From an uncultured Lacinutrix sp. (GTDB taxonomy: Bacteria; Bacteroidota; Bacteroidia; Flavobacteriales; Flavobacteriaceae), in the NCBI RefSeq assembly GCF_947500325.1, contig NZ_CANMRQ010000010.1:1-64000 (forward strand): a stretch of 64,000 nucleotides of DNA, read 5' to 3'. Positions 23,606-28,072 of this stretch are shown here, in pieces. How positions within the stretch are numbered: position 1 is the stretch's first letter; the number at the start of each line of letters is the position of its first letter. A program made the position numbers and the translations under genes. Below the pieces are notes generated by a model. The model was not told where the DNA came from. It saw only the letters and a list, made by a program, of their open reading frames with translations, and made no database searches.

Positions 23606-24940
23606 TTATATTTTTCTATTAGTATCAAATTGCTCAAAATAATCTGCAACGCGACGTACAAAACTTCCTCCTAAAAAACCATCTACGACTCTATGATCGA
23701 ATGACAATGATAAATACATCATACTTCGAATCGCAATTTCATCTCCTTTCTCTGTCTCTATAACTTCTGGTCTTTTCTTTATAATTCCTAAAGCTAGTAT
23801 AGCAACTTCTGGTTGGTTAATAATTGGGGTTCCCATAACGCTTCCAAAAGTACCTACATTAGAAATAGTAAACGTACTCCCTTTAATATCATCGCCTCCT
23901 AATTTATTTTCTCTGGCTTTTCCAGCCAATTCGTTTACATTAGCAGCAATTGTTTTTAAATCTTTAGTATCCGCATTTTTTACCACAGGAACAATTAAAT
24001 TTCCACTTGGTAATGCTGTAGCCATACCTATATTTACATCTTCTTTTACGATAATATTATTACCATCAACAGATGCATTTATATTTGGAAAATCTTTAAC
24101 TGCTTTTGCTACGGCTTCAACAAATAATGGTGTAAAGGTTAAACGTTGTCCATATTTTTCTTGAAAAGGGACTTTATTAGCATTTCTCCAATTAACCATA
24201 TTAGTTAAATCTGCTTCAACATATGCTGTAACGTGTGGTGATGTATGCTTAGAATACACCATATGATCTGCAATCATTTGGCGCATTCTGTCCATTTCTA
24301 TTACTTTGCCTTTTCCTTTATCAAAACTCAATTGAGGAATTCGATATGCTGTTGGATCTTTTTCTGCAATTGGCTGTGCAAACTTAAATGGCCGTCCTTC
24401 TTCTATATACTGAAATACATCGCTTTTACGTAAACGTCCTTCGTTTCCTGTTGCTGGAATACGTGCTAGCTCTTCAAAACTAATATGATGTTCCCGAGCA
24501 ATTTTTATAATTAATGGCGAAAAAAAAGTATTAGAATTTGAAACACTAAATGCCTTAGATGCTTCATTTGAATTTGAAACAGGTTTTGGTCTTTTAATAG
24601 CTTTCTTCTTTTTCTGAGATTCTTGGCTACCACTCTTATTGACATCTTGTTTTTTTGATGCTTTCACTTCTTCCGTAACCTCAAGAATTGCCATTATTTC
24701 TCCAACAGGAACAACATCTTTAGCTTGAAATAATGTTTTAACCAACGTTCCTGAAGCTGGTGCTGGGACTTCATTATCCACTTTATCTGTTGCAACTTCA
24801 AGAATAATATCGCCTTCATTGAAGCTATCGCCTTCTGAAATTAACCAATTGATGATGGTTCCTTCTGTTATACTTTCGCCCATCTTGGGCATTTTAAGTT
24901 CATAATTTCCTGCGAAAGCAGGAATCTCTTTTTCACTCAT
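23606..24940 (-). CDS. Branched-chain 2-oxoacid dehydrogenase E2 (acyltransferase)
   Basis: A 444-residue dihydrolipoyl acyltransferase. It has a lipoyl domain (about 13-88, lipoyl-lysine Lys53 in EVATDKVDNE), a basic/Ser linker, a peripheral subunit-binding domain (about 140-178) and a catalytic domain with DHRVVDG (His416, Asp420). It transfers the acyl group from E1 to CoA. The N-terminus is odd: the first 12 residues include IPAFAG, which is the translation of a hairpin that flanks the upstream GIY-YIG gene. The natural E2 start (MAEF-like) survives only as a relic at 25287-25327. The start codon overlaps the end of the GIY-YIG gene by 8 bases, suggesting translational coupling. Confidence 0.93.
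   Translation of the reverse strand: MSEKEIPAFAGNYELKMPKMGESITEGTIINWLISEGDSFNEGDIILEVATDKVDNEVPAPASGTLVKTLFQAKDVVPVGEIMAILEVTEEVKASKKQDVNKSGSQESQKKKKAIKRPKPVSNSNEASKAFSVSNSNTFFSPLIIKIAREHHISFEELARIPATGNEGRLRKSDVFQYIEEGRPFKFAQPIAEKDPTAYRIPQLSFDKGKGKVIEMDRMRQMIADHMVYSKHTSPHVTAYVEADLTNMVNWRNANKVPFQEKYGQRLTFTPLFVEAVAKAVKDFPNINASVDGNNIIVKEDVNIGMATALPSGNLIVPVVKNADTKDLKTIAANVNELAGKARENKLGGDDIKGSTFTISNVGTFGSVMGTPIINQPEVAILALGIIKKRPEVIETEKGDEIAIRSMMYLSLSFDHRVVDGFLGGSFVRRVADYFEQFDTNRKI
24907..24924. repeat. GAAA-loop hairpin, copy 1 (inside E2 coding sequence)
   Basis: A 7-bp stem (TTCCTGC at 24907-24913 with GCAGGAA at 24918-24924) has a GAAA loop on the plus strand. On the minus strand it is translated as part of the E2 N-terminus (IPAFAG). 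The copy at 25267 is the mate on the other side of the GIY-YIG gene. Confidence 0.85.
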
Positions 24941-25250
24941 TTCTAAACTTTTTTAAGTTTAAATTCCAATTCATACTAATATCAATCCAACTAGGGTTCA
25001 TATCTTCAATTAACTCGATTTTCCAATCTCGTTTCCACTTTTTGAATCTTTTCTCTCTAATATTTGCTTCATCATCATTTTCAAACTCTTCAAAATACAC
25101 TAGTTTATCACAATTATATTTAGCTGTAAATGATTTGGGGTATATTTTCAACTTATGCTCTTTTACTCTTTCTTCAATATTATCTGTTACTCCAATATAA
25201 ATCGTTCCATTTGGTTTATTTGCCATTATATAGACATACCAGTGTTTCAT
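24933..25250 (-). CDS. GIY-YIG nuclease-family protein, copy 1
   Basis: A 105-residue single-domain GIY-YIG protein. YVYIMANKPNGTIYIG (4-20) supplies the GIY and YIG strands, Arg28 fits the catalytic arginine and Glu66 in REKRFKKW the metal-binding glutamate, so it is probably an active DNA nuclease. The family is the small UPF0213/YhbQ-like group, multi-copy in Bacteroidota. A second copy at 27710 is clearly homologous along its whole length. It is flanked on both sides by the same hairpin, and its stop overlaps the E2 start by 8 bases. The last 15 residues differ from copy 2, as if the 3' end was reshaped where it meets E2. Confidence 0.85.
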   Translation of the reverse strand: MKHWYVYIMANKPNGTIYIGVTDNIEERVKEHKLKIYPKSFTAKYNCDKLVYFEEFENDDEANIREKRFKKWKRDWKIELIEDMNPSWIDISMNWNLNLKKFRNE

Positions 25251-25266
25251 TTTTATTTATTTAGAG

Positions 25267-25286
25267 ATTCCTGCGAAAGCAGGAAT
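25267..25286. repeat. GAAA-loop hairpin, copy 2
   Basis: An 8-bp perfect stem (ATTCCTGC at 25267-25274 with GCAGGAAT at 25279-25286) has a GAAA loop on the plus strand. It sits 16 bases upstream of the GIY-YIG start, next to the relic of the E2 start. Confidence 0.85.
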
Positions 25287-25327
25287 GTTTCTCCCATCTT
25301 GGGCATTTAAAGTTGAAATTCTGCCAA
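25287..25327 (-). pseudogene. Relic of the original E2 gene start
   Basis: Read on the minus strand from 25327, the codons TTG GCA GAA TTT CAA CTT TAA ATG CCC AAG ATG GGA GAA spell (M/L)AEFQL-stop-MPKMGE. Intact E2 proteins typically begin MAEF.LK.PKMGES, and the live E2 gene has ELKMPKMGES at residues 14-23. Two point changes (ATG to TTG, AAA to TAA) would explain the loss of function. The copy ends where the hairpin begins. I infer this is the displaced 5' end of the E2 gene, no longer under selection. Confidence 0.65.
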
Positions 25328-27657: not shown

Positions 27658-27669
27658 CACGTTTACGTG

Positions 27670-27687
27670 TTCCCGTGAAAACGGGAA
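27670..27687. repeat. GAAA-loop hairpin, copy 3
   Basis: TTCCCGT (27670-27676) pairs with ACGGGAA (27681-27687) around GAAA. It has the same design and close sequence to copies 1 and 2 and sits 22 bases past the stop of the second GIY-YIG gene, just upstream of the crotonase start. Confidence 0.75.
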
Positions 27688-27709
27688 GCTTTTTAATGTT
27701 AAACTTAAT

Positions 27710-27994
27710 TTATAATTCTTTATGCAAATCTATCCAATCTGGATTATTCTTTTCTATTAATTCAATTTTCCAACCTCTATTCCATTTCTTCATCTGTCGT
27801 TCTTTCAATCTAGCTTCCTTTTTAGTTTCAAATTCTTCAAAATAAATCAATTTATCTAAATTATATCTTGCTGAGAATGTAGTTGGATGCACTTTATTTT
27901 TATGTTGATATATTCTTCTTTTTAAATCTTTTGTTTCTCCAATATATAAAACACCGTCTTTTTTATTTGTTATTATATAGACGCAATGTTTCAT
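27710..27994 (-). CDS. GIY-YIG nuclease-family protein, copy 2
   Basis: A 94-residue single-domain GIY-YIG protein, homologous over its full length to the copy at 24933 (shared YFEEFE, KKW.R.WKIELIE and NP.WID blocks). Motifs are CVYIITNKKDGVLYIG (4-19), catalytic Arg27 or Arg26, and Glu65 in KERQMKKW. It is probably an active nuclease. It sits inside the paa operon between paaZ and the crotonase gene, where it has no evident metabolic role, and is bounded by hairpins at 27670 and 28053. This supports it being a passenger or mobile gene. Confidence 0.85.
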   Translation of the reverse strand: MKHCVYIITNKKDGVLYIGETKDLKRRIYQHKNKVHPTTFSARYNLDKLIYFEEFETKKEARLKERQMKKWNRGWKIELIEKNNPDWIDLHKEL

Positions 27995-28052
27995 ATTTGT
28001 TTTCCTCTAAAACAATAGAGTTAGCAATTTAGTTTTTCTTTCAATTTTTAAG

Positions 28053-28072
28053 ACTCCCGATTTCTCGGGAGT
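28053..28072. repeat. GAAA-loop hairpin, copy 4 (inverted)
   Basis: ACTCCCGA (28053-28060) pairs with TCGGGAGT (28065-28072). The loop is TTTC on plus, so GAAA on minus, opposite to copy 3. The two hairpins bracket the second GIY-YIG gene. The T-rich stretch at 28031-28049 lies downstream on the minus strand, so it might also terminate some paaZ transcripts. Confidence 0.75.

Follow-up and report, generated by a model that had tools for sequence, protein, structure and literature searches.

A GIY-YIG nuclease gene between two hairpins in the 5′ coding end of an E2 acyltransferase gene of Lacinutrix: a probable one-sided homing unit

The DNA analysed here (the window) is a stretch of 64,000 nucleotides (nt) of contig NZ_CANMRQ010000010.1 from an uncultured Lacinutrix sp., and the element in question is a 380-base block inserted in the 5′ end of its E2 (dihydrolipoyl acyltransferase) gene (23606-24940, minus strand). 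Read along the minus strand, the locus consists of a relic of the original E2 start (25327-25287), a hairpin (25285-25268), a GIY-YIG nuclease gene (25250-24933), a new E2 start (24940), a second hairpin (24924-24907) and a second copy of the E2 start, followed by the rest of the gene down to 23606. The relic (TTGGCAGAATTTCAACTTTAAATGCCCAAGATGGGAGAAAC) holds one stop codon and is severed by the left (upstream) hairpin. A short leader frame, MPKMGETFLLSQESLNK followed by a stop, runs from the inner ATG of the relic through this hairpin (25253-25306, minus strand) and may be used by ribosomes. The hairpins at 25268-25285 and 24907-24924 are identical to each other, each with a 4-nt loop and a 7-bp stem; with the flanking A/T, the left stem reaches 8 bp. 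The pattern CCYGCNNNNGCRGG has two matches in the 64 kb, both of them the hairpins of the block, where 0.04 were expected. The right (downstream) hairpin lies within the E2 reading frame, where it codes for IPAFAG. As the initial annotation had noted, the block contains a single GIY-YIG gene between two hairpins, and the live E2 begins inside it: the new start codon (24938-24940) overlaps the nuclease stop (ATGAGTGA) and opens a reading frame of 444 residues, which passes through the live copy of the duplicated 5′ end (24874-24906) and keeps the lipoyl, E3-binding and catalytic domains. The family matches single out no substrate for this E2; "branched-chain" was the label of the initial annotation.

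The nuclease gene is intact and encodes 105 residues. Its product matches PF01541 at 66.9 bits (E 2e-18; cut-off 22.6) and thus carries the catalytic domain of the GIY-YIG nuclease superfamily; an overlapping T5orf172 model is barely above its cut-off (20.9 vs 20). From this domain and the open frame, the enzyme is likely to be active. It resembles the UPF0213 proteins 1YWL and 1ZG2, small single-domain GIY-YIG proteins of 96 and 107 residues, which a profile of seven nuclease relatives matched at E 3.4e-4 and 5.7e-4, respectively. To our knowledge, UPF0213 proteins have not been described as mobile or hairpin-bounded.

Direct repeats of about 34 bases had been reported to flank the block. They were recovered as an ungapped identity of 25/27 between 24874-24900 and 25288-25314, while the best 27-base match among 2000 random pairs of 66-base window pieces at the same spacing was 20. 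The minus-strand decoding proposed for the upstream repeat (TTG GCA GAA ... TAA ATG ... GGA GAA) also holds; the two disabling changes ascribed to it do not, as there is one stop (TAA in place of the AAA of relatives) and, besides it, the break made by the hairpin. Within the genus, 13 genomes were covered by a protein search, the own genome and 12 congeners. An E2 orthologue is present in 11 of the 12 congeners, split over two overlapping frames in G004, and only paralogues were obtained from G009. All 11 align from residue 11 or 12 of the window E2, begin directly and hold the repeat singly, as the initial annotation had anticipated for genes without the insert. None of the 11 has a second copy within ~1.5 kb, none begins with SEKEIPAFAG, and neither unit nor hairpin was found around the site, in a span reaching 250 nt upstream and 60 nt downstream. 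G006 and G004 are the closest congeners, at 85% and 84% by Lrp and 77% each by the intergenic stretch. Their undivided E2 starts (L034 and L037, respectively) equal the relic in the first 18 bases and agree with it in 35/39 and 36/39 bases overall. Therefore, the relic represents the former E2 start and the block a novelty of the window's lineage, in support of the earlier proposal that it inserted into an intact gene.

The block is not unique but a member of a recurrent family with few preferred targets. A search of 397 genomes of the Flavobacteriaceae for two hairpins 325-354 bases apart gave 19 places in 14 genomes, with none for a control pattern. A GIY-YIG gene is present in 14 of the 16 fetched loci (L085 and L097 overlap) and is bracketed by the hairpins in 11 of the 19 places. 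In addition, a scan with seven query nucleases yielded 79 loci from the best 80 of 363 relatives, mostly labelled Flavobacteriaceae; the queries came from E2 and paa-operon units, so the list is biased to their kin. By downstream gene, the loci divide into sugar nucleotidyltransferase (40), paaZ (10), E2 (10), paaB (9), thiolase, paaJ (3), paaY (3), SDR (1), aldehyde dehydrogenase (1), other (1) and unknown (1), L130 and L172 having been placed in the paaB class through their upstream gene. Checked on the window genes, the names PaaZ, PaaA, PaaB and 3-oxoadipyl-CoA thiolase stand above the NCBIfam cut-off; PaaY and PaaI are best matches below it, the nucleotidyltransferase is below all cut-offs, and paaG is enoyl-CoA hydratase-like only.

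Of the 70 loci with a nuclease gene of at least 250 nt, 47 have a G+C-rich hairpin of any kind within 100 nt on the upstream side of the gene, 60 on the downstream side and 44 on both; the corresponding counts for 230 other open reading frames of the same loci are 19, 20 and 2. CCYGC-type hairpins within 130 nt were found upstream in 57/70, downstream in 60/70 and on both sides in 48/70 (11, 11 and 2 of the 230 control frames, within 100 nt). The arms of the right hairpin covary, with 218 of 245 cells paired against a shuffled mean of 174 and maximum of 189 (2000 shuffles), a result which is partly circular, the candidates having been chosen as hairpins. The left hairpin (126/133 cells vs a shuffled mean of 122.4) is uninformative because nearly all its arms are alike. 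The nuclease frame is interrupted in 9 of the 79 loci, as expected once a parasite has settled.

Several related arrangements were observed beside these. The window itself has a second GIY-YIG gene (27710-27994, minus strand) between hairpins at 28054-28071 and 27670-27687, within the stretch 27660-28071. It sits at a paaZ/enoyl-CoA hydratase junction, and a close relative precedes the same hydratase in G004, G005 and G006 (L056, L058, L059), a few kb from E2. At the paaZ sites L114, L124 and L140, the upstream gene has its end replaced by the left hairpin, whose loop GTAG gives the stop codon. In Winogradskyella SP247 (L139), the aldehyde dehydrogenase begins MKNNEIPAYAG..., and the in-frame new start is therefore not confined to E2. 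Other GIY-YIG genes of the genus (L057, L060, L068) lie between different hairpins (TCCTGAACTTGTTTCAGGA and similar), which indicates that the hairpin type changes with the nuclease.

Comparison of the E2-sited units revealed that the right junction is constant, directly before (T/C)GAATTAAAATGCCC or similar, and that the left junction varies. It follows the MGE codons, with ~30 bp duplicated, in the window, L090 and L095; it follows codon 15 or 16, with ~45-50 bp duplicated, in L122, L123, L152, L169 and L177; and it lies in the upstream paaY or non-coding DNA, with no duplication, in L129, L173 and L119. The target duplication of the initial annotation is thus real, but not of the classical fixed-length kind, as it ranges from absent to ~50 bp. 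Left of the present unit, an older scar of like kind was found in L122, L123, L125 and L135, which means that the same E2 spot was invaded again; L095 holds three copies of the E2 start. Over eight loci, the relics differ from the gene of their own genome at 7 positions, against a permuted mean of 31.9, and 2 of the 40320 permutations give so small a sum; with five loci and 44 bases the values are 9 and 21.8, with 2 of 120 as low. This tracking is consistent with duplications that arose separately in each lineage or with an exchange between copies at a later time. By E2 and the layout between Lrp and E2, the nearest named loci are L123 and L177 of Winogradskyella (88% each), with L169, of family-level name, also at 88%.

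The reading frames continue across the hairpins. At E2, the frame of the relic stays open across the left hairpin, giving FLRRQES or similar, and its stop falls between -9 and +1 nt relative to the start of the nuclease in L122, L123, L152, L169, L177 and L090. For L135 the leader stop is at -4, for the window at -2 (in the frame of the inner ATG, the old start being closed by a stop) and for L095, whose nuclease start is uncertain, at -13. The paaY frame likewise runs on in L129, with its stop at +4, and in L173 it goes into the hairpin in frame; left of the unit in L119 there is no coding sequence. On the other side, in the nine E2-sited loci with an intact nuclease, the E2 start lies 8-14 nt before the end of the nuclease gene and the frame passes through the right hairpin. 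From this layout, ribosomes would appear to use a chain of leader, nuclease and E2.

The history of the nuclease was examined in a tree of 76 rows, comprising 69 of the 79 loci (at least 95 residues) and seven others. The target-site label changes 18 times on this tree against 37.9 when shuffled, with none of 200 shuffles as low, although many forks are unresolved because the protein is short. The window nuclease falls in a clade of 11 rows (support 91), nine of them E2-sited, one at paaZ and one at an aldehyde dehydrogenase; 3 of the 12 E2-sited rows lie outside it. Nucleases at different sites of one genome do not cluster (L123/L131, L109/L139 and L113/L137, in three genomes).

Taken together, these results suggest that the block is probably a selfish unit, consisting of left hairpin, GIY-YIG gene and right hairpin, which homes one-sidedly into the 5′ coding end of E2. 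Comparison between loci demonstrates an undivided, hairpin-free site in relatives, a duplicated E2 5′ end, a target hit in several genera with differing left ends, units grouped by target and a host gene restarted from a codon of the unit. The unit would have entered E2 after the lineage of the window split from its nearest congeners. The nuclease would cut the uninvaded E2 start ~30-50 bp downstream of the right junction, and the E2 side of the break would then invade a unit-bearing copy and copy leftwards through both hairpins. Homology to such a copy would be good in E2 and poor upstream. Finally, the remaining side of the break would be joined to the new left end. One-sided homing of this kind would keep the right junction constant, let the left one vary and duplicate a length equal to the distance from junction to cut. 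The host gene may tolerate the insertion because translation is relayed: the old E2 start would read through the left hairpin and stop at the nuclease start, and the nuclease stop overlaps the new E2 start, which would read through the right hairpin.

A nuclease which is more alike between genomes than the adjacent DNA would be a sign of homing, and identity was compared for the nuclease DNA and the DNA 100-900 bases downstream in 644 same-site pairs. The nuclease is more alike in 530 of these, with means of 78.0 vs 74.1. The two identities correlate (r 0.69), so vertical descent also contributes. By site, the nuclease exceeds the downstream DNA in 476/557 pairs at the nucleotidyltransferase, 9/9 at paaB, 3/3 at paaJ and 3/3 at paaY. 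In the case of paaB of Winogradskyella sediminis and Oceanihabitans, the nuclease is 96.8% identical and the downstream DNA 82.8%, with an abrupt left edge. Base-by-base alignment showed an abrupt left edge and a long tract rightwards in L106/L116, a peak over the unit with drops on both sides in L134/L148 and L108/L109, and no clear pattern in L163/L165. A profile of 42 pairs runs, from left to right, through 69.9, 78.3, 82.2 and 78.5 upstream, 89.8 at the nuclease and 86.0, 82.0, 79.2 and 76.7 downstream.

Several observations weigh against the homing reading. The overall excess of identity stems mainly from the nucleotidyltransferase and paaB sites, and the former lack a duplication like that at E2. 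There is hardly an excess at paaZ (21/36 pairs) and none at E2, where the nuclease exceeds the downstream DNA in 18/36 pairs and the upstream DNA in 4/16 (means 75.6 and 75.8); as judged from these identities, other sites show a clear sign of horizontal transfer, which E2 on average lacks. The abrupt left edge appeared in only one of the four pairs aligned base by base, and the 42 profile pairs were selected for at least 85% identity of the nuclease, a bias in its favour, the last upstream bin being partly non-coding. The 5′ half of the window E2 is no nearer to unit-bearing E2 genes than to those of congeners, so that no donor tract is visible; a foreign tract in the window E2 was accordingly rejected, identity along the gene revealing none. 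L125 has lost its leader frame, and no recognised DNA-binding domain was found among the Pfam and NCBIfam matches of the window nuclease. Moreover, we infer cleavage by the nuclease and movement of the unit from comparison. The case at E2 therefore rests on the undivided sites, the repeated hits and the relics; the lack of excess there lowers the odds of homing and raises those of transposition and of an operon gene (see below).

Similar nuclease genes between hairpins were found in other bacteria, and there the hairpins belong to a described class. CGTC-tagged repetitive extragenic palindromes (REPs) are characterised, in the description of these repeats in PMC3733652, by a tag CGTC, often TGTC or CCTC, a stem of 8-9 bp nearly always starting AT, a loop of 4-5 nt and a tail that is mostly CCA. 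The same description reports them in five phyla, including Neisseria dRS3 (class CGTC-1) and Rickettsia RPE-6, and to its extent they apparently lack a dedicated transposase. In a plasmid collection, relatives of the window nuclease occur in 33 records, of which 14 were examined, picked to avoid near-copies. CGTC-type REP hairpins lie on both sides within 260 nt in ten: Shinella (two), S. meliloti, Rhizobium CIAT894, Azospirillum, where the nuclease relative sits between sufB and sufC, Novosphingobium, Sphingobium, Neorhizobium, N. gonorrhoeae and Aeromonas. The downstream tag of Aeromonas is CGTT, and the stems of Novosphingobium and Sphingobium do not start AT. In Rhizobium K1/93 and Photobacterium the hairpins are on one side only, and in Planktothrix and Spirosoma no hairpins of the searched kind were found on either side. 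The hairpins closest to the gene form an inverted pair in Rhizobium CIAT894, Novosphingobium, Shinella PSBB067, Sphingobium and Neorhizobium, and a direct one in Aeromonas; the remaining both-sided loci, e.g., Azospirillum, S. meliloti and N. gonorrhoeae, have several hairpins rather than one pair. Three control stretches of 40 kb, chosen for a hairpin-flanked nuclease, contain 3, 5 and 2 tagged REPs, and none of 108 other annotated genes is flanked on both sides within 210 nt. No clean empty site was found for S. meliloti or Rhizobium CIAT894 among the matches listed (12 of 146 and 10 of 10, respectively). In the N. gonorrhoeae record (L187), the GIY-YIG gene is flanked by repeats of dRS3 form. 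The genome of the window also contains a tandem pair of near-identical GIY-YIG genes (G000:C3:107343-108229; L009, L010), with long CGTCATTGCGAGG... / ...GCAATCT repeats between and around them, which are another CGTC-tagged form.

The left hairpin of the window, ATTCCTGC/GCAGGAAT with a 4-nt loop, has the stem and loop form of a CGTC REP, and the right one keeps 7 bp. Both lack a CGTC, TGTC or CCTC tag and a CCA tail. A TGTC tag with CCA tail is present at L083, L087, L088 and L098, and most proteobacterial loci are tagged. The window hairpins are therefore related in form to CGTC REPs and not proven members.

With such ends, transposition is the main rival to homing. Here the nuclease, alone or with host enzymes, would take the hairpins as ends, excise or copy the unit and insert it at a staggered break, which gives the duplication. 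We consider this unlikely, though it accounts for a good deal: the hairpins at both ends, which mostly match within a plasmid-collection locus, differ between loci and are inverted in five; the covariation of the right arms, with its partial circularity; the units at several different genes of one genome; and the lack of excess identity at E2, as expected if units reach E2 separately. It fits poorly with the three genomes whose units at different genes are not nearest kin, with a duplication ranging from none to ~50 bp, with the inconstant orientation of the hairpins (direct in Aeromonas, several in Azospirillum, S. meliloti and N. gonorrhoeae) and with the lack of a transposase domain among the Pfam and NCBIfam matches. 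On two of these grounds, the inconstant length of the duplication and the absence of a transposase, a classical insertion sequence was rejected.

That the GIY-YIG gene is an ordinary operon gene, inherited with its operon, and that the hairpins are terminators or RNA-processing signals is very improbable. The units do lie between co-directional genes, and with r 0.69 over the 644 pairs much of the within-site history may be vertical. Nevertheless, the undivided sites in 11 congeners, on which this explanation with terminators was rejected for the E2 site of the window, stand against it, together with relics that track their own gene, the 9/79 interrupted frames, nucleases more alike than core genes at several sites and similar genes between unrelated genes elsewhere. 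Least credible of all is that the nuclease invades pre-existing REPs as harmless landing sites: hairpins of the same class do occur without a nuclease in the same genomes, but the hairpin-free undivided E2 sites of the 11 congeners imply that both hairpins came with the nuclease, and this explanation was rejected at E2. Recent import from a known phage was also rejected, as a search of 50,697 phage records gave no match to the nuclease at E 1e-5.

Among known systems, the Seg genes are free-standing GIY-YIG homing endonuclease genes of T4-like phages whose flanking DNA is converted alongside. Like them, the nuclease gene of the window is intron-less, lies between host genes and belongs to a recurrent target; the likeness in flank conversion is drawn for its unit by comparison only and does not extend to E2. 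Unlike them, the unit is bacterial, has hairpins at both ends, a target duplication and a start codon given to the target gene, and is without the phage match sought above. Free-standing homing endonucleases usually carry a NUMOD-type DNA-binding domain beside the GIY-YIG domain, as described in PMC1564403; none is among the domain matches of the window nuclease. The REPtron, as outlined in PMC3733652, has a REP-associated tyrosine transposase (RAYT) between GTAG-tagged REPs. The present arrangement is similar in that a nuclease-type gene is bracketed by REP hairpins, inverted in many but not all loci, and differs in having a GIY-YIG instead of an HUH/tyrosine enzyme and REPs of the CGTC class; the HUH motif and catalytic tyrosine transposase that define RAYT/IS200-IS605 enzymes are missing, with no transposase family matched. 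With CGTC-tagged REPs, the window hairpins share an 8-bp stem starting AT, a 4-nt loop as in family 1 and the capacity to lie inside genes; they differ in the missing tag and tail and in that the pair encloses a nuclease gene. Full-text searches revealed, among the matches listed, no publication linking GIY-YIG genes with REPs, dRS3 or hairpin-bounded insertion, most subscription journals being outside their scope. The unit thus consists of known parts, a target-recurrent nuclease gene and REP-like ends, in a combination that we could not find described.

We tentatively suggest, at somewhat less than even confidence, that the mobilising partner so far missing for CGTC-tagged REPs, in Proteobacteria and Bacteroidota alike, is a GIY-YIG nuclease of this kind. 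Such nucleases would form a second, independent type of REPtron in which the hairpins serve both as mobile ends and as in-frame code that hands translation to the nuclease and back. With a nuclease gene that CGTC-type repeats bracket in alpha-, beta- and gammaproteobacteria, and a variant of them in Flavobacteriaceae, there is a candidate enzyme for these REPs, which were reported to lack a transposase of their own, and the question of their partner becomes testable through it. Moreover, the E2 unit suggests how a parasite may enter the coding start of a metabolic gene without killing the gene, namely by keeping the frame through both hairpins and supplying a new start codon.

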